Positions 57,318-63,557 of a DNA stretch of 64,000 nt are shown here, piece after piece. A model generated the notes under the pieces. The model was not told the DNA's origin, searched no databases, and worked only from the letters and a program-made list of their open reading frames with translations. The translations under genes and the position numbers were made by a program. The DNA lies in the NCBI RefSeq assembly GCF_023638055.1, contig NZ_JAKRVY010000002.1, positions 186,001-250,000 on the forward strand, read 5' to 3'. The stretch's first letter is position 1. The number at the start of each line of letters is the position of its first letter. The stretch comes from Natranaeroarchaeum aerophilus. GTDB lineage: Archaea > Halobacteriota > Halobacteria > Halobacteriales > Natronoarchaeaceae.

Positions 57318-58520
57318 GTGAAAGCGGTGGTTCTCGCCGCGGGAGAAGGAACACGGATGCGACCACTGACCGCGACTCGACCGAAACCGATGGTTCCTGT
57401 CGCGGGCAAGCCGCTGGTCGAGCACGTGCTCGACATCGCTGCGGAGTACGTCGACGGCTACGTCCTCGTCGTCGGCTACAAAGAGGAATCGATCCGTTCG
57501 TATCTCGGCGACGAACACCTCGGAAAGCCGATCGAGTACGTTCGACAGGAAGAACAACGCGGGACGGCGCATGCGATCGGACAGGCCGAACCATACGTCG
57601 ACGAGCGATTCCTGGCGCTCAACGGCGACGTAATGCTCGACGACGGTCTCGTTGCGAAGTTAGCTGGTGCAGAGGCAAACGCCATTGCGACGATGCGCGT
57701 CGACGATCCGACCGCCTACGGCGTGATATCGCGGGACGGTGATCGGGTGACCGGCATCGTCGAGAAGCCGAAAGATCCGCCTTCGACCCTCGCCAATCTC
57801 GGTCTCTACGCCTTCGAGCCGGAGATCTTCGAGTACATCGACCGGACCGGCCGGAGCGAGCGCGGCGAGTACGAGATTACCGATTCAATCGAGATGTCCA
57901 TCGACGACGGTCGAACTGTCGTCGCCGTCGAACACACCGGAACGTGGCTCGACGTCGGCCGGCCGTGGGAGGTTCTCGACGCCAACGAACATCTCCTCGA
58001 ACACTGTTCACGCCGGATCAACGGCGACGTCGAGGACGGCGCGACGGTCAACGGCGATGTGGTGATCGAGGAGGGCGCACGCGTCCGGTCCGGGGCCTAT
58101 CTGGACGGCCCCGTGCTCGTCCAGTCGGGGGCGGACGTCGGGCCGAACGCCTACGTCCGGGGATCCACGGTGGTCGGCCGGAACGCCCGGGTCGGCAACG
58201 GCGTCGAGATCAAAAACTCGATCCTGCTCGACGGTGCGAGCGTGGGCCACCTCTCCTACGTCGGCGACTCGGTTATCGGTGCCGACGCGAACCTGGGTGC
58301 TGGAACCATCGTCGCCAACCTCCGCCACGACGATCAGCCAGTCAAGATGGCCGTCAAGGGCGAACAGGTCGACACCGGTCGCCGAAAACTCGGTGTCGTC
58401 CTCGCCGACGGCGTCAAAACCGGGATCAACACGAGCCTCAACGCGGGCACGAAACTCGGCGTCGGCGCGATGACCCGACCCGGCGAGTCGGTGATGTCGG
58501 ATCGGGGAGACGGGCTGTAG
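57318..58520 (+). CDS. Bifunctional sugar-1-phosphate nucleotidylyltransferase/acetyltransferase (GlmU-like)
   Basis: This 400-residue protein has an N-terminal nucleotidyltransferase (VVLAAGEGTRMRPLTATRPK and NGDVMLDD) and a C-terminal left-handed beta-helix of hexapeptide repeats (about 235-390). It resembles AglF, which makes UDP-sugars for the N-glycosylation pathway, and GlmU. The start is GTG at 57318. Adjacent aglJ supports a glycan role. Confidence 0.9.
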   Translation: MKAVVLAAGEGTRMRPLTATRPKPMVPVAGKPLVEHVLDIAAEYVDGYVLVVGYKEESIRSYLGDEHLGKPIEYVRQEEQRGTAHAIGQAEPYVDERFLALNGDVMLDDGLVAKLAGAEANAIATMRVDDPTAYGVISRDGDRVTGIVEKPKDPPSTLANLGLYAFEPEIFEYIDRTGRSERGEYEITDSIEMSIDDGRTVVAVEHTGTWLDVGRPWEVLDANEHLLEHCSRRINGDVEDGATVNGDVVIEEGARVRSGAYLDGPVLVQSGADVGPNAYVRGSTVVGRNARVGNGVEIKNSILLDGASVGHLSYVGDSVIGADANLGAGTIVANLRHDDQPVKMAVKGEQVDTGRRKLGVVLADGVKTGINTSLNAGTKLGVGAMTRPGESVMSDRGDGL

Positions 58521-58523
58521 GTG

Positions 58524-59477
58524 CTACTGGATATCGGCGCGCTCGAAGTAGACGACTGCGGCAGCGAGCAGTGCGCCAGCGCCGACAAGTAGTCCGAGCA
58601 GCGACACGAGTGGCGGGACGTGACCCGCAAGCGGTACCGACGCCTCCATCCCGCCGACGAGCGGGTCGACGCCGGTTCCGGCCGTATCGTAGACGCCAGT
58701 TGCCGATCCCAGGGCAGACTGCGTTGTGGGACTGAACTCCACGCCGAGTGCTTCGAGGAGGAAAACGAACGCGTTCCCGAAGTGGTAGTTCAGATCGACG
58801 AAGTACAGCCGGTAGTCGACGTAGATCGTTGCTCCCGCGAGTAGCCGGACAGGAATAAACGCGAAAAAGACGACGGGAATCAACAGCGTCGCAAGTACCG
58901 TCCCCATCCGGCTCCCCGTCAGGACGGCGAGCGCGGTTCCGACTGCCCCTGTCACGAAGCCGACGAACAGCGCGTAAACGAGGATTCCCGGGACGAGTGC
59001 CCAGACGCCGCCGCCCAGTGCCATCGGGCTGACAGCAGCGAGATCGGCCCCCAGGAAGTGAAAGACGAGCACCGCGCTCAGCAGAATCCCTGCAAGCATC
59101 GTGAGAACGGTAAAGAGGAAGATTGCGGCGAACTTCCCGCCCAGGACTTCCCAGCGTCGGATCGGCTTGCTCAGCAGGATCCGGAGCGTCCCAGTCTGGG
59201 ACTCCTTTGCGATGCCGTTTGCCGCCAGCACGCTCACCAGCACCATCATCGGGATTCCGACGCCCCAGAGGAAGGCCAGCTGGCTGAACGCCGCCGCAAG
59301 CTCCTGTTCCTGGACGTGGAGGGGCATCGTCGCCAGTTCGTCGGGTGCGGCCTGTGTTACTCCGATCGCAAGGAACGCGCCCACCCCCGCGTAGACGACC
59401 AGAAAGCCCAGCAAGTACAGCGGATTCGAGAAGTCATCGAGGGACTTGCGCATGACGACCACGCCTCCAGCGATCAT
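58524..59477 (-). CDS. ABC-2 transporter permease
   Basis: This 317-residue protein has six membrane helices and KESQTGTLRILLSKPIRRWEVLGGKF near residue 100, the signature cytoplasmic loop of ABC-2 (NosY/GldF-type) permeases. It overlaps the ATPase gene by 4 nt. It is the last of three genes in one operon. Confidence 0.9.
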   Translation of the reverse strand: MIAGGVVVMRKSLDDFSNPLYLLGFLVVYAGVGAFLAIGVTQAAPDELATMPLHVQEQELAAAFSQLAFLWGVGIPMMVLVSVLAANGIAKESQTGTLRILLSKPIRRWEVLGGKFAAIFLFTVLTMLAGILLSAVLVFHFLGADLAAVSPMALGGGVWALVPGILVYALFVGFVTGAVGTALAVLTGSRMGTVLATLLIPVVFFAFIPVRLLAGATIYVDYRLYFVDLNYHFGNAFVFLLEALGVEFSPTTQSALGSATGVYDTAGTGVDPLVGGMEASVPLAGHVPPLVSLLGLLVGAGALLAAAVVYFERADIQ

Positions 59478-60388
59478 TCCGCCTCACCTCCAGCCATGAT
59501 GTCGGCAAAGGCCTCCTCGAGGCTGCCCTCCTCGGAGAGCCCTTCGAGCAGGATCCCCTCCTCGGCCAGCAGCGTTTGCAGTTCGCTTTTGAACTCGTCG
59601 GGCTGGTCGGTCGCAACCATGATCGCATCGCCCTCGATACGGACCTCGGAGATCCACTCGCGTCCCTCGATCAGCGCGACGACACGCTCGTCGTCGGAGG
59701 TCTCGACCGAGAACGCCTGACCGCCGTACTCCGACTGGATGGCCGAAACGTCGTTCGTCTCGACGAGCTGTCCGTCCCGGAGGATACTCACGGTGTCGAT
59801 GAACTGTTCCAGCTCCGCGAGGACGTGGCTGCTGACGAACACCGTAATTCCCTCCTCAGTCAACTCCTCGAGCGACTCGATGATGATCCGACGACCCGTC
59901 GGGTCGAGCTCGGCGGTCGGCTCGTCGAGGATCAGCAGCTCCGGCTCGTGGATCATCGCCTGTGCCAGGCTGAGTCGGCGTCGCATCCCGCCGCTGAACC
60001 CACTGATCGTCTGGTCCGCCGCGTCGGCCAGGTCGAGCCAGTCGAGCAGTTCGTCCGCCCGTTCGTTCGCCCGAGAGCCCATCCCTGCGGTCTTTCCCAT
60101 GTAGACCAGATACCGTTTTGCCGTCATCGATTCGTGGAACGCCGGCTCCTGGGGAGCGTAGCCGATCTTTTCTTTGGCTGCGATCGTCCCGGCTTTCTCG
60201 CCATCGATGTAGGCCTCTCCCTCTGTCGGCCTGAGCAGTCCAACAAGCATCTGCATGGCTGTCGTCTTCCCCGCCCCGTTCGGGCCGACGAAGCCGTGGA
60301 GACTCCCTTCTTCGACCGCGAGATCCATCCCGTCGACTGCCCGTACGTCACCGAACGTTTTCGTGAGGTTCGTCGTTTCGATCATCAT
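59474..60388 (-). CDS. ABC transporter ATP-binding protein
   Basis: This 304-residue ATPase has Walker A GPNGAGKTT (36-44), the signature FSGGMRRRLSLAQAM, Walker B LLILDEPT and the switch His in VSSHVLAELE. A C-terminal acidic domain of about 80 residues follows. Starting 4 nt after the beta-propeller gene, it probably powers the permease gene behind it. Confidence 0.93.
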   Translation of the reverse strand: MMIETTNLTKTFGDVRAVDGMDLAVEEGSLHGFVGPNGAGKTTAMQMLVGLLRPTEGEAYIDGEKAGTIAAKEKIGYAPQEPAFHESMTAKRYLVYMGKTAGMGSRANERADELLDWLDLADAADQTISGFSGGMRRRLSLAQAMIHEPELLILDEPTAELDPTGRRIIIESLEELTEEGITVFVSSHVLAELEQFIDTVSILRDGQLVETNDVSAIQSEYGGQAFSVETSDDERVVALIEGREWISEVRIEGDAIMVATDQPDEFKSELQTLLAEEGILLEGLSEEGSLEEAFADIMAGGEAE

Positions 60389-60392
60389 GGTA

Positions 60393-63300
60393 TCACCCTC
60401 TCACCTTTCTGAGCACGGTCGGAACCAGCCCGATCCCGAACAGCACGCCGATCGAGACGCCTGTGCCCGCATACAGGAACAGATGCGAACTTGACCCCTC
60501 CTCGACCGTCACCGTCGTCGAGTCGTGGATCGTGATGCCATCCGCGCTGGTTGCCCTGATCTCGACCTCGTGGGTGCCGTCCGGAAGCCGGAGGTCGGTC
60601 GCCGTTTCCGTCGTGATCGCCACCGGAACGCCATCGACCGTCAATGTCGAGACGTACTCCCGATCGGCGTCGAACGTCCACTCGATCCGTTGTCCCTCGT
60701 CAGTCTCGCTCGTCGAGAGCGTCACGCCATCGTCGGGGTTGACGGTCCGAAGGCTACCGTCCCCGCGCAGGAGACCGACCTCCTCGTCGAGCGTGACGAA
60801 CTCGGCGACGGTGCCGTCTCCGCTCAGCAGAACCTCTCCTTCGGTCGGATCGACGATGTAGAACCGGACACTCGAAGCAGTGCCATCCGTGCTCGCTACG
60901 ATCCCGAGTTCGGGCGTTCCGTCGCCGGTCTGATCAGGGATCGACTGGGCAGTGATCCCGGTTTCTGACTCCGCGGTCGTGCCTTCCACCCACGGTTCGA
61001 GGTCGATGGTTTCCGTGACAGTGCCCGTGGCGTCGTGCAGGTTTACTCTTACACCCTGTCCACCGTGTCGTGGGGTCTCGACTACCGCAACCGAGTCGAC
61101 TCCCTCACCCGTGACCGTGGCGGGTGTCGGTACCGTTACCGACTCGAGGTCCCGGACGACGGAACTGGGCTGTAGCTGCTGGCTCCAGCGCTCGTCGACG
61201 CCCTCGTACACCGAGAGCCGGCCCTCGCCGCCCTCGTCCTCGAAGGCGATCAGGACGTCATCACTCACCGACACGGAGAGCCGATCGGATCGCTGGAACG
61301 TGGCGGGAACGGAAAGATCACCAGGCGCGATGATCGTTGCCTCCGTATCGTCGTCACGGATGTCGACGAGCAGTTCGTCGTAGCCGTCACCGGTGAGATC
61401 TCCTAGTATCCGCAGATCGGTCTGCCCGGAGCGGTCACCCTCGATCGATCCCTGCCGGACCGTGTCGAACTCCAGTTCGTCGCCAGTCCACTCCGGCTCC
61501 AGCACTGCGAGATTAGCGTCGGAGCGCGAGATCGCGAGGACGTGGGACGGCTCGTCACCGCCGACTGCACGGTACCGAATGTCGTTCCCGTCGACGGGCT
61601 GGAACTCCTCAGGAGCGTCCGGACCACGTGCCTGATACGTGCGCTCGAAGACGGTCTCACCCGTTTCTGTATCGACCACGTACACGAACTGACGGTCACC
61701 GAGCAGCACGTTCACGTTGCCGTTCCCGGTGACATCGCCGAGCACGTCCATCGAGACTGCCTGTAACTGATGGCCGTCTTGGTTGACGAGGTCGATGCTG
61801 AGACGTTCGGTTCCATCACTGCCGTCGAGTCGCAAGAGCTCCCCGGGTGGGAGCTCACTGGGATCTCCATCCGTATAGTCCGGCTGCCGGACCGTAATCA
61901 GATCGGCACCACCACTCCCGTCGTCGACGACGCGGACGAACTCGTGACCGCCCTGTTCCAGGAACTCGCCGGTATCGAGTATTTCCGACCAGACCACGCT
62001 CCCATCAGTGCCGGACCTGAGCACGAGGCTTCGCGACTGGACGCCACCCTGTCGCTGGTTCTGTGAGACGAGCAAGTAGTCGTCGATGCCGTCGCCGGTG
62101 AAGTCGGCGACGACCGGGTCAATAGAACGGATCGAGGGGACGCCCCACTGTCGTTCGGCGTCACCATCGATCGCAATTAGATCGCCGCTGGCAGCGGTAA
62201 TCGCGATGTCGTCCCCGGCGGCACCCACGTAGCCGGTCCCGCTACTCGGTCCGCCCCGCGGGTCCGCCCCCGGGACGGTGTCGACCGCAAATGTCGTGGT
62301 AACGCTGCCATCGTCAAGTCCCAGCACGTCGACCTGCTGGCCGTCCTCGTCTGGCGGTTCGGGCACCAGTAGCCCTCCGGCTGCCTCGCTATACGCGACG
62401 TTCCCAACCCCCTCAAAGTCTATTTCGGTATCCGACCAAACGATATCGCCCGACCCGACATCGAGTCGATGCAGTGCAGTCGTCTCGGGTCGGTAGTTGC
62501 GGTTATCCGGCTGTGCCTCGATTTGGACGACAGCGATCAGGGCGTCCTCGGCGACGATCAGCTCGACGTTCTCGAAGTTCGCGTCGCCGGGCAGCGTCGG
62601 ATAGCCGGCTCGTTCATCCCCGCGGTAGTAGGTCTCGAGGCTGTCGTCGTCCAGTTCGAGCACCTGTTCGCTCCAGATTGCCGTTCCATCCGAGCGATCC
62701 GCGAGGACGACCTGGCCGTCCTCGGTCGAGAGGGCGAGCCGTTCCGCTCCGTCGACCGTTGTCGGCTCGACGCTCCAGACCGAATGCGGGATCTCACCCA
62801 TCTGGTCGTGTGTGAACGTCCCCGCGACCTGCTCGTCGTACAGCTCCGTTCCATCCGGATCGAGACCGAGAAGGGTGCCGCCCTGCGTTCCGGCGTAGAG
62901 GCGGTCCCCATCGTACGCCAGCTCCCAGACGTTGTGCGAGCGGTCATGTTGCCAAAGCTGCTCGCCGTCCTCGCCGCCCAGAGCGATGATCGACTTGCCA
63001 GCCGCGACGGCGACGTCGTCAGTGCCGTCACCGGTGCGATCGCCGATCGGCGCGGCGTCGAACGCAGGCACCTGTCGGTCGACGAAGCCGAAGTCGTTGC
63101 TATAGACGGTTCGTTCGTGTGACTCGGACCAGATGATCTCGCCGTTCCAAAGATCGACCAGCAGAACGTTCGCAAACTGGTCGTCGTCAGTGAGCACGAC
63201 AACACGGTCATCACCGACGTTGGAGACGTCCTTCACCGGTCGCGTATCGATGTACTGGTCGATCTCACCGTTGTCGATCACGTAGAGCCCCCGGTCGGTT

Positions 63301-63557
63301 CCCACCACGACGTTGTCGCCGACGTGGGTAGGCGGCATCGTCACGTCACCCTCGATGGTGGCCGGGATCATCAGTTCCCCGTCCACGGAATGGGCCGGCT
63401 GGTCGATCTGCGCGTCCCATTCTACTGTCGTGTCGGGACCGATCGGTCCGTCTTCACCGTCCGCAGCCAGGACACCGCCAACTGCTGCGCCGAGAAGTAT
63501 CGCGGCGACCACGAAGGCGATCCCGATTATCGCCTGGCGTTTCGACACGAGTACCAC
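60393..63557 (-). CDS. Membrane-anchored beta-propeller (PQQ/VCBS-like) protein
   Basis: This 1054-residue protein has an N-terminal anchor (about 8-30), a large external part with many repeats of two types, PQQ-like blades (VVVGTDRGLYVID, EDGEQLWQHDRS, GTQGGTLLGLD) and FG-GAP/VCBS-like DxTGDGxDD motifs (DRTGDGTDDVAVA, DFTGDGIDDYLL, DLTGDGYDELLVD), then an Ig-like domain and a C-terminal membrane helix (about 1028-1050). It begins at GTG 63557; GTG 63548 is an alternative. With the ABC-2 genes it forms an operon, so it is likely the external binding part of the transporter. Confidence 0.85.
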   Translation of the reverse strand: MVLVSKRQAIIGIAFVVAAILLGAAVGGVLAADGEDGPIGPDTTVEWDAQIDQPAHSVDGELMIPATIEGDVTMPPTHVGDNVVVGTDRGLYVIDNGEIDQYIDTRPVKDVSNVGDDRVVVLTDDDQFANVLLVDLWNGEIIWSESHERTVYSNDFGFVDRQVPAFDAAPIGDRTGDGTDDVAVAAGKSIIALGGEDGEQLWQHDRSHNVWELAYDGDRLYAGTQGGTLLGLDPDGTELYDEQVAGTFTHDQMGEIPHSVWSVEPTTVDGAERLALSTEDGQVVLADRSDGTAIWSEQVLELDDDSLETYYRGDERAGYPTLPGDANFENVELIVAEDALIAVVQIEAQPDNRNYRPETTALHRLDVGSGDIVWSDTEIDFEGVGNVAYSEAAGGLLVPEPPDEDGQQVDVLGLDDGSVTTTFAVDTVPGADPRGGPSSGTGYVGAAGDDIAITAASGDLIAIDGDAERQWGVPSIRSIDPVVADFTGDGIDDYLLVSQNQRQGGVQSRSLVLRSGTDGSVVWSEILDTGEFLEQGGHEFVRVVDDGSGGADLITVRQPDYTDGDPSELPPGELLRLDGSDGTERLSIDLVNQDGHQLQAVSMDVLGDVTGNGNVNVLLGDRQFVYVVDTETGETVFERTYQARGPDAPEEFQPVDGNDIRYRAVGGDEPSHVLAISRSDANLAVLEPEWTGDELEFDTVRQGSIEGDRSGQTDLRILGDLTGDGYDELLVDIRDDDTEATIIAPGDLSVPATFQRSDRLSVSVSDDVLIAFEDEGGEGRLSVYEGVDERWSQQLQPSSVVRDLESVTVPTPATVTGEGVDSVAVVETPRHGGQGVRVNLHDATGTVTETIDLEPWVEGTTAESETGITAQSIPDQTGDGTPELGIVASTDGTASSVRFYIVDPTEGEVLLSGDGTVAEFVTLDEEVGLLRGDGSLRTVNPDDGVTLSTSETDEGQRIEWTFDADREYVSTLTVDGVPVAITTETATDLRLPDGTHEVEIRATSADGITIHDSTTVTVEEGSSSHLFLYAGTGVSIGVLFGIGLVPTVLRKVRG

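Follow-up and report, generated by a model that had tools for sequence, protein, structure and literature searches.

The window analysed here is a 64,000-nucleotide stretch of the Natranaeroarchaeum aerophilus genome (contig NZ_JAKRVY010000002.1, positions 186,001 to 250,000), and the system in question occupies its positions 58524-63557. Three genes lie there on the minus strand. A head gene (60393..63557) begins with GTG, a later in-frame GTG being a possible alternative start, and encodes 1054 amino acids. It is separated by a 4-nucleotide gap from an ATP-binding cassette (ABC) ATPase gene (59474..60388, 304 amino acids), which overlaps by 4 nucleotides an ABC-2 permease gene (58524..59477, 317 amino acids) whose product has a NosY-like predicted fold. 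The three genes are confirmed as one tight operon. An earlier reading made from the DNA letters alone (the sequence-only reading) had the coordinates, strand, gap and overlap exactly right, and its description of a propeller with PQQ-like repeats, an ABC ATPase and an ABC-2 permease is borne out by Pfam. PQQ_2 matches the head in two stretches above cut-off (E = 5.7e-13), ABC_tran matches the ATPase (E = 4.1e-32, 112.1 bits against a cut-off of 25) and ABC2_membrane_2 matches the permease (E = 5.6e-11, 42.7 bits against 27.2). By reading, the ATPase has a Walker A motif (GPNGAGKTT), a signature (SGGM), a Walker B motif (LLILDEP) and an H-loop (SSH).

The operon is more than a chance arrangement, since the same three-gene block is conserved in distant archaea: haloarchaea and metagenome-assembled genomes (MAGs) of Hadesarchaea, Aenigmatarchaeota and Lokiarchaeota. 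Seven family propeller genes were found, in the window, G069, G362, Halorussus halobius, Salinibaculum litoreum (where the gene is split across two frames), a Hadesarchaea MAG and an Aenigmatarchaeota MAG. The ATPase and permease genes stand directly downstream of six of them, and the seventh (G362) stops at a contig edge; a propeller placed beside the ABC pair by chance was therefore rejected. The sequence-only reading had proposed this co-occurrence as its own check and would have yielded to a propeller mostly found without ABC genes, which is not the pattern observed; it had also expected a large outside partner for a NosFY-type pair, and the three genes do occur together. A propeller profile run on 14 genomes found one such gene in each of the seven carriers and otherwise short matches. 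In the Lokiarchaeota, a head lies upstream at seven of nine permease loci (five complete, at 1462-1767 amino acids, and two contig-cut), and Pfam identifies both of the scanned heads as propellers (FAM234A/B-type, with 44.1 and 35.3 bits against a cut-off of 26.4). One Lokiarchaeota genome, G677, has two long open reading frames (ORFs) with partial propeller-profile matches, and the surroundings of one of them were read.

The system is patchily distributed and the permease family is sharply bounded. Among 391 genomes of its class, the window propeller matched six, itself included: G362 over residues 13-893, ending at the contig edge, G069 over about its full length in two pieces, and three others over just 55-84 residues. 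The permease alone found eight of the 391 at E = 1e-10, and a profile built from eight permeases gave nine strong matches (E <= 1.1e-96) in the same eight genomes. No further match, whatever the genome, was better than 3.6e-11, and it is this gap that bounds the family, with 65 of the 391 genomes having something at 1e-6. Of the nine genomes drawn from the window's own family group, only the window's carries the system, and a set of 344 phylum genomes, overlapping the class draw, added nothing stronger than E = 2.5e-13. Against named genomes the window propeller found no match as a query, and the permease profile was required; it returned 59 loci. The neighbourhoods of 16 were read, four (L034, L036, L038 and L042) appear to belong to genomes already covered, two (L047 and L049) supplied ABC sequences only, and 37 weaker bacterial matches (L052-L088) were set aside. 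Only head, ATPase and permease recur in more than three of 18 loci compared, and among these 18, with the Lokiarchaeota loci outside the comparison, there is no constant fourth gene. A regulator-like gene occurs in three, and flavin adenine dinucleotide (FAD)-oxidoreductase genes and several other kinds in two each. No fixed client therefore travels with the system.

The permease was modelled with high confidence (predicted local distance difference test, pLDDT, 89.8), and its predicted fold is closest to NosY of the NosDFY complex. All ten Foldseek matches at E <= 0.001 are NosDFY-complex chains, NosY by size and label, and the top six VIA rows are NosDFY or NosFY (Z 17.9-21.3), followed by ABCA4 (Z 17.0); ABCA, ABCG and PmtCD exporters reach Z 15-17, and families missing from the VIA tables are not counted as excluded. 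Sequence searches of the PDB with the permease gave no match. In an alignment of 12 permeases running from haloarchaea to Lokiarchaeota, four Lokiarchaeota sequences among them, K11, D15, L101, S103, K104, P105 and R108 are invariant at the putative coupling helix, as are Y219, D228, H232, N235, Q253 and G261 on what is probably the outside. All but the first of this second group lie within residues 222-288 (58614..58814, minus strand), a segment that separates the last two long helices of the model and would face outward by the usual ABC-2 topology. If this sidedness is right, the outward residues stay invariant although the heads differ. In the ATPase tree, where long branches are flagged and the only NosF sequences are haloarchaeal, two NosF and 29 other ATPases form a branch (97/80) that includes none of the 23 head-linked ATPases.

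Four kinds of head are encoded directly before the ATPase, all on one ATPase-permease group. In G136, G086, G205, G275 and QS_1_68_20 the propeller is replaced by one related protein with a motif resembling that of twin-arginine translocation (Tat) signals; Pfam scans of two of the five, from G136 and G086, gave Peptidase_S8 and CarboxypepD_reg above cut-off in both. The G136 protein also has a beta-helix match that passes its cut-off, whereas in G086 the matches to NosD and to a beta-helix stay below theirs. These subtilase heads keep Asp, His and Ser in all five cases, and the oxyanion-hole asparagine is lost in three; we assume the usual roles for these residues. Given that loss, some subtilase heads may bind instead of cutting. 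Natrarchaeobius (G312) has two loci with related heads of 469-472 amino acids, one with a Pel9A-like beta-helix barely above cut-off. The related heads of SW_6_65_15 and Halonotius terrestris (551-557 amino acids) have a faint likeness to an SBBP propeller (E = 3e-6, 26 bits against a cut-off of 400), and the SBBP-type propeller is thus only weakly assigned as a fourth kind. An N-terminal hydrophobic or Tat-like segment is present in 18 of 20 heads, so that the heads are probably not the transporter's cargo.

At least three changes among the four head labels are required on a combined tree, counting Lokiarchaeota, decayed and frameshifted loci as propeller. Drawn with midpoint rooting, this tree nests the non-propeller heads within the propeller heads; in an ATPase tree with outgroups some subtilase and beta-helix loci are deepest. 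The Salinibaculum ABC genes group with nine non-propeller loci (100/100; the nine without Salinibaculum, 91/84). Since the C-terminus of the Salinibaculum propeller also carries an anchor in the subtilase and beta-helix style, we regard this propeller as a natural intermediate. Together, the swapped heads suggest one motor serving different surface tasks. This exchange of heads was out of reach for the sequence-only reading.

What the heads have in common is their C-terminal end. Made from subtilase and beta-helix heads, a profile covering the final 36 residues recovered the propeller heads of the window and G069 (E = 8e-5 and 9e-5), with the next of 1461 ORFs at 1.2; made from subtilase heads alone, it put the propeller heads at 8e-5 and 5e-4 and the next ORF at 1.5. 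A propeller-trained version, built from two sequences, found four other heads at 9e-5 to 5.7e-3. When the stalk before the anchor was included, a profile from six propeller heads ranked all 12 other heads given to it (seven from Lokiarchaeota and five haloarchaeal heads of other kinds) above every other ORF, at E = 1.9e-5 to 0.064 with the first non-head at 0.68. All seven Lokiarchaeota heads matched (1.9e-5 to 5.7e-3), and the five haloarchaeal non-propeller heads matched best in the anchor part. Across the 391 genomes, with at most 19 first-look candidates scored per genome, the anchor profile found eight strong places (E <= 3e-18, all of them the profile's own training rows) in seven genomes, every one at a system locus: G312 twice, G086, G275, G136, G205, the window's genome (G000) and G069. 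Three weak extra matches (E = 2.4e-4 to 6.2e-4), which might have put the anchor on orphan proteins, were taken as chance, because they lie within apparent polytopic membrane proteins beside cytochrome oxidase genes. C-terminal hydropathy is above threshold in 14 of 20 heads.

The window head itself is 26-41% identical to four relatives in alignments, and its predicted model is all-beta with one helix leading and one trailing. Its probable parts, all on the minus strand, begin with a hydrophobic segment likely to serve as an export signal (residues 1-34, 63456..63557), for which the model gives a helix at 8-23 with pLDDT below 50. Tat-like RR motifs are present in the G069 and Halorussus heads, and none was seen in the N-terminus of the window head. 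Structure comparison of the model places a first beta-propeller at residues 63-465 (62163..63371), with a best VIA-align match to 8fl2_NJ (Z 31.9, root-mean-square deviation 2.8, 321 residues aligned). BamB entries score Z 28.5-31.0 over about the same residues, and WD40 propellers and BamB together span Z 28.5-31.9 among the matches listed; we take the matched chains to be eight-bladed. A profile of the head run against the PDB matched designed propellers, BamB and pyrroloquinoline quinone (PQQ) dehydrogenases among the best 60 of 64. A second all-beta, propeller-like region would follow at residues ~478-940 (60738..62126), its fold and boundaries suggested by regular beta strands of lower confidence. 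It contains FG-GAP-like loops at positions 485, 608, 720 and 875.

The VCBS-like repeats claimed from sequence alone fared unevenly. The head does have five loops of the D-x-[TN]-G-[DN]-G type, a calcium-binding type, yet no FG-GAP or VCBS family is among the matches of its Pfam scan. FG-GAP_3 has no match anywhere in the window's genome, and is found in the Hadesarchaea (E = 7.7e-18) and Aenigmatarchaeota (E = 1.1e-6) relatives. A probable membrane-proximal stalk occupies residues ~945-1019 (60501..60725); drawn from alignments and profile, and immunoglobulin-like by eye only, it is common to the Lokiarchaeota heads. The candidate C-terminal anchor (residues 1020-1054, 60396..60500) is defined by the profiles and related in the other head kinds. 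Its hydrophobic segment at 1026-1045 scores 1.87, barely above the threshold of 1.8, and the predicted anchor helix (1025-1040) lies in a low-confidence stretch of the model. The earlier claim of an anchored head thus holds, with hydrophobic segments and predicted helices at both ends, the second segment being marginal and both helices of low confidence, and the structure prediction that it called for does yield a propeller. Its overall interpretation is partly supported.

We suggest, with a probability of about 0.5, that this operon encodes a NosFY-like engine that acts on surface clients, mechanically or in assembly, by way of an anchored head that can be exchanged. The three-part ABC machine, of the type V fold, would have a motor of two ATPases and two permeases, a dimer expected from the family. 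The propeller protein would be exported through its own N-terminal signal and remain tethered by its C-terminal membrane helix, with the conserved stalk before it; the head would dock on the permease, ATP-driven movement of the permease would be transmitted to it, and the head would grip a surface or exported client and fold, load, process or release it. That the motor acts through the head on a client encoded elsewhere is our reading of four things together: the heads' own export signals, the shared anchor, the NosY-like motor and the lack of a fixed client gene. Docking, mechanical coupling and the nature of the client are the parts that we infer, and a NosFY-type engine may here do mechanical work instead of transport.

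Several points weigh against this suggestion. Confidence in the head model is only middling (pLDDT 65, predicted template modelling score 0.47). The propeller-trained anchor profile leaves two subtilase heads amid unrelated ORFs (0.56 and 1.7), and with one trained on two beta-helix sequences an unrelated ORF (0.048) comes between the two propellers (0.024 and 0.29). Six heads (those of Halorussus, G086, G205 and G275 and the two of G312) miss the C-terminal hydropathy threshold, and their anchor would be assigned by likeness. Fold likeness shows no function, with ABCA, ABCG and PmtCD exporters following at Z 15-17, and the lowest NosY row (Z 17.9) is tied with ABCA4 (Z 17.0). Finally, the NosD of haloarchaeal nos clusters appears, from its sequence, to have a polar C-terminal tail without the head-type anchor; the coupling would therefore differ from that in NosDFY.

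If the suggestion is right, a NosFY-like engine with swappable anchored heads is a ready test system, one motor with several natural head swaps, available in Halorussus halobius (propeller), Halobellus clavatus (subtilase) and Natrarchaeobius chitinivorans (beta-helix). The natural swaps indicate that the socket is the stalk and anchor and the tool the remaining outer part. Archaea have a single membrane, usually with a surface layer, and to our knowledge energy-dependent folding, loading and processing outside the archaeal cell are poorly known. More tentatively, we propose an undescribed archaeal family of modular ABC systems, from Lokiarchaeota to haloarchaea, in which a NosFY-like engine and an anchor-stalk socket carry interchangeable tools (multi-propeller, subtilase plus beta-helix, beta-helix, SBBP-type) as a general-purpose ATP-driven device at a surface without ATP, the Asgard form perhaps being a distant counterpart of the lumenal part of EMC1.

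It seems unlikely to us that the pair simply exports a lipid, a glycan or another surface component, as ABC-2 systems ordinarily do, with an outside receiver or relay in the head. The ABC2_membrane domain of the permease is above cut-off, the ABCA, ABCG and PmtCD folds are also good matches to it, and glycosyltransferase-like and sugar nucleotidyltransferase-like ORFs lie just past the window operon. However, NosY beats every exporter in the fold table, sugar genes are absent from the genes common to the loci and the nearest here is convergent, and a single substrate would leave unrelated heads on the same engine unexplained. We consider it somewhat more doubtful still that the system provides immunity or detoxification, perhaps against peptide toxins such as halocins, with the head catching a toxin (or, in the subtilase form, cleaving it) and the ABC pair clearing the membrane. 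Its presence in only eight of 391 genomes, the decayed copy in G257 and the exchange of binding or protease heads would all suit such a role, as would the matches of the ATPase to the lantibiotic protection family TIGR03740 (167.9 bits) and of the permease to MutG (19.1 bits). These scores are nevertheless under the cut-offs of 309.75 and 117.2 bits, the oxyanion-hole asparagine is gone in three of five subtilase heads, and the presence of the propeller form in MAGs of both Lokiarchaeota and Aenigmatarchaeota is a broader spread than an arms race would suggest.

Least probable, and in our view very improbable, is a metal or cofactor importer of the PedA1A2BC type with the propeller as its outside binding part. 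PedA1A2BC does join a beta-propeller, an ATPase and a permease (PMC6839425), and the window head has loops of calcium-binding type. Against this, there is no substrate-binding protein gene among the adjacent ORFs, which by reading resemble RtcB and a sugar nucleotidyltransferase, and the window ATPase reaches only 150.5 bits of the 302.25 set as the cut-off for TIGR03864, which we take to be the PedB model. At E up to 0.1, the PQQ-catabolism-associated propeller family (PedA2) is not among the four matches of the head, nor the PQQ-ABC permease family among the four matches of the permease.

The surroundings of the system, with genes named by reading, vary from locus to locus. In the window, a convergent ORF (57318-58520) ends 3 bases from the operon, a divergent RtcB-like gene lies upstream, and of the glycosyltransferase-like and sugar nucleotidyltransferase-like ORFs just outside it the nearest is the convergent one. 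Just past the right edge of the window (L001:7738-10245) lies a gene for an 835-amino acid protein with the N-terminus GITPVVAVILLFG, presumably archaeal-pilin-like, although its length is unusual for such proteins. FAD-dependent oxidoreductase-like genes that are mutually alike adjoin the system in G362 (L009:2852-3901, minus strand) and G069 (L010:4874-5899, plus strand); QS_1_68_20 has a separate FAD desaturase-like gene after the permease (L037:8979-10346, plus strand), and the window copy has no neighbouring FAD-oxidoreductase-like gene. The related regulator-like genes (L028:6551-7144, L033:2029-2832 and L040:4710-5267) belong to three loci with beta-helix or SBBP-type heads. The decayed operon of G257 (L024:6455-8100) consists of a head fragment, a truncated ATPase and a permease with an altered start, and QS_6_64_34 has a permease without a head within the stretch read. 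The Hadesarchaea MAG holds a complete propeller system (L032:3846-8945) whose permease is 45% identical to that of the window, the seven others in the comparison being 37-44% identical; lateral transfer or misbinning of this copy is possible.

The sequence-only reading knew of no assigned function for such a combination, and this needs correction. In Pseudomonas, growth at low lanthanide requires PedA1A2BC, in which a YVTN beta-propeller is joined by a substrate-binding protein, a permease and an ABC ATPase (PMC6839425); the combination of propeller and ABC genes thus has a precedent. That system, for lanthanide uptake in P. putida (PMC6839425, PMC12997753), resembles the window in encoding a beta-propeller with an ABC ATPase and permease, and differs in its YVTN-type propeller and additional substrate-binding protein; the window proteins are below its family cut-offs. 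Among the matches listed from the open literature, no title describes an archaeal head/ABC-2 system of the present kind, which does not prove its absence in print.

A resemblance to EMC1, which has two propellers on the lumenal side of the endoplasmic reticulum (ER) membrane protein complex (EMC; PMC7785296), is at the level of fold. EMC chains as large as EMC1 take the top five places among the Foldseek matches of the whole head, led by 8s9s_1 (E = 2.7e-17). However, the TM-score is 0.18 by query length with 10% identity, and the head profile did not find EMC1 among its best 60 of 64 PDB matches. Kinship with EMC1 was rejected on these grounds, and the likeness is probably one of shared propeller plan only.

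Other ABC systems are related in part. GldAFG and DrrAB have the ATPase and permease superfamily in common with the window system, and the window proteins fall under their family cut-offs (GldA 167 of 402.6 bits, GldF 30.7 of 288.5, DrrA 220.5 of 312.45). Of the NosFY/GldAF type first proposed for the pair, the NosFY half is thus favoured, with NosY first in the fold ranking, and the GldAF half does not extend beyond the superfamily. FtsEX-EnvC and YbbAP-TesA also join an ABC motor to an outside protein, and offer a hydrolase-partner precedent for the subtilase heads; they differ in being named type VII in abstracts, whereas the window permease fits the NosY fold.

The nearest likeness is to NosDFY, the nitrous oxide reductase maturation system of a NosD beta-helix, a NosF ATPase and a NosY permease, which has the same three-part plan and the nearest permease fold, and whose beta-helix has a parallel in the heads of some sister loci. 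NosDFY proper was nevertheless rejected: there is no full-length NosZ, the ATPases lie apart from NosF, and the heads tested are not NosD. Full-model NosZ matches occur in two of nine genomes (G312 and G362; 537 bits, under the family cut-off of 625), on contigs other than those of the head/ABC locus, and the window's draft genome, 98% complete, has no full-length NosZ, just two short matches near the model end. The window head does not match the NosD family TIGR04247 at E up to 0.1, and none of six other heads exceeds 34.8 bits, where the cut-off is 300 and a haloarchaeal NosD control reaches 371.7. As controls we used the nos clusters found in G312 and G362, and no ORF of two haloarchaeal nos loci matched the permease query at E up to 1. 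Haloarchaeal nos clusters at L128:3645-9823 and L127 carry NosZ, NosD and NosF; their NosY was assigned by position, no NCBIfam model naming it at E up to 0.01. Older work cited in PMC9240420 places nosFY genes in a haloarchaeon without nosZ, and this may reflect other NosFY-like pairs. What is new here is the modularity: the same engine and anchor with swapped outer heads.

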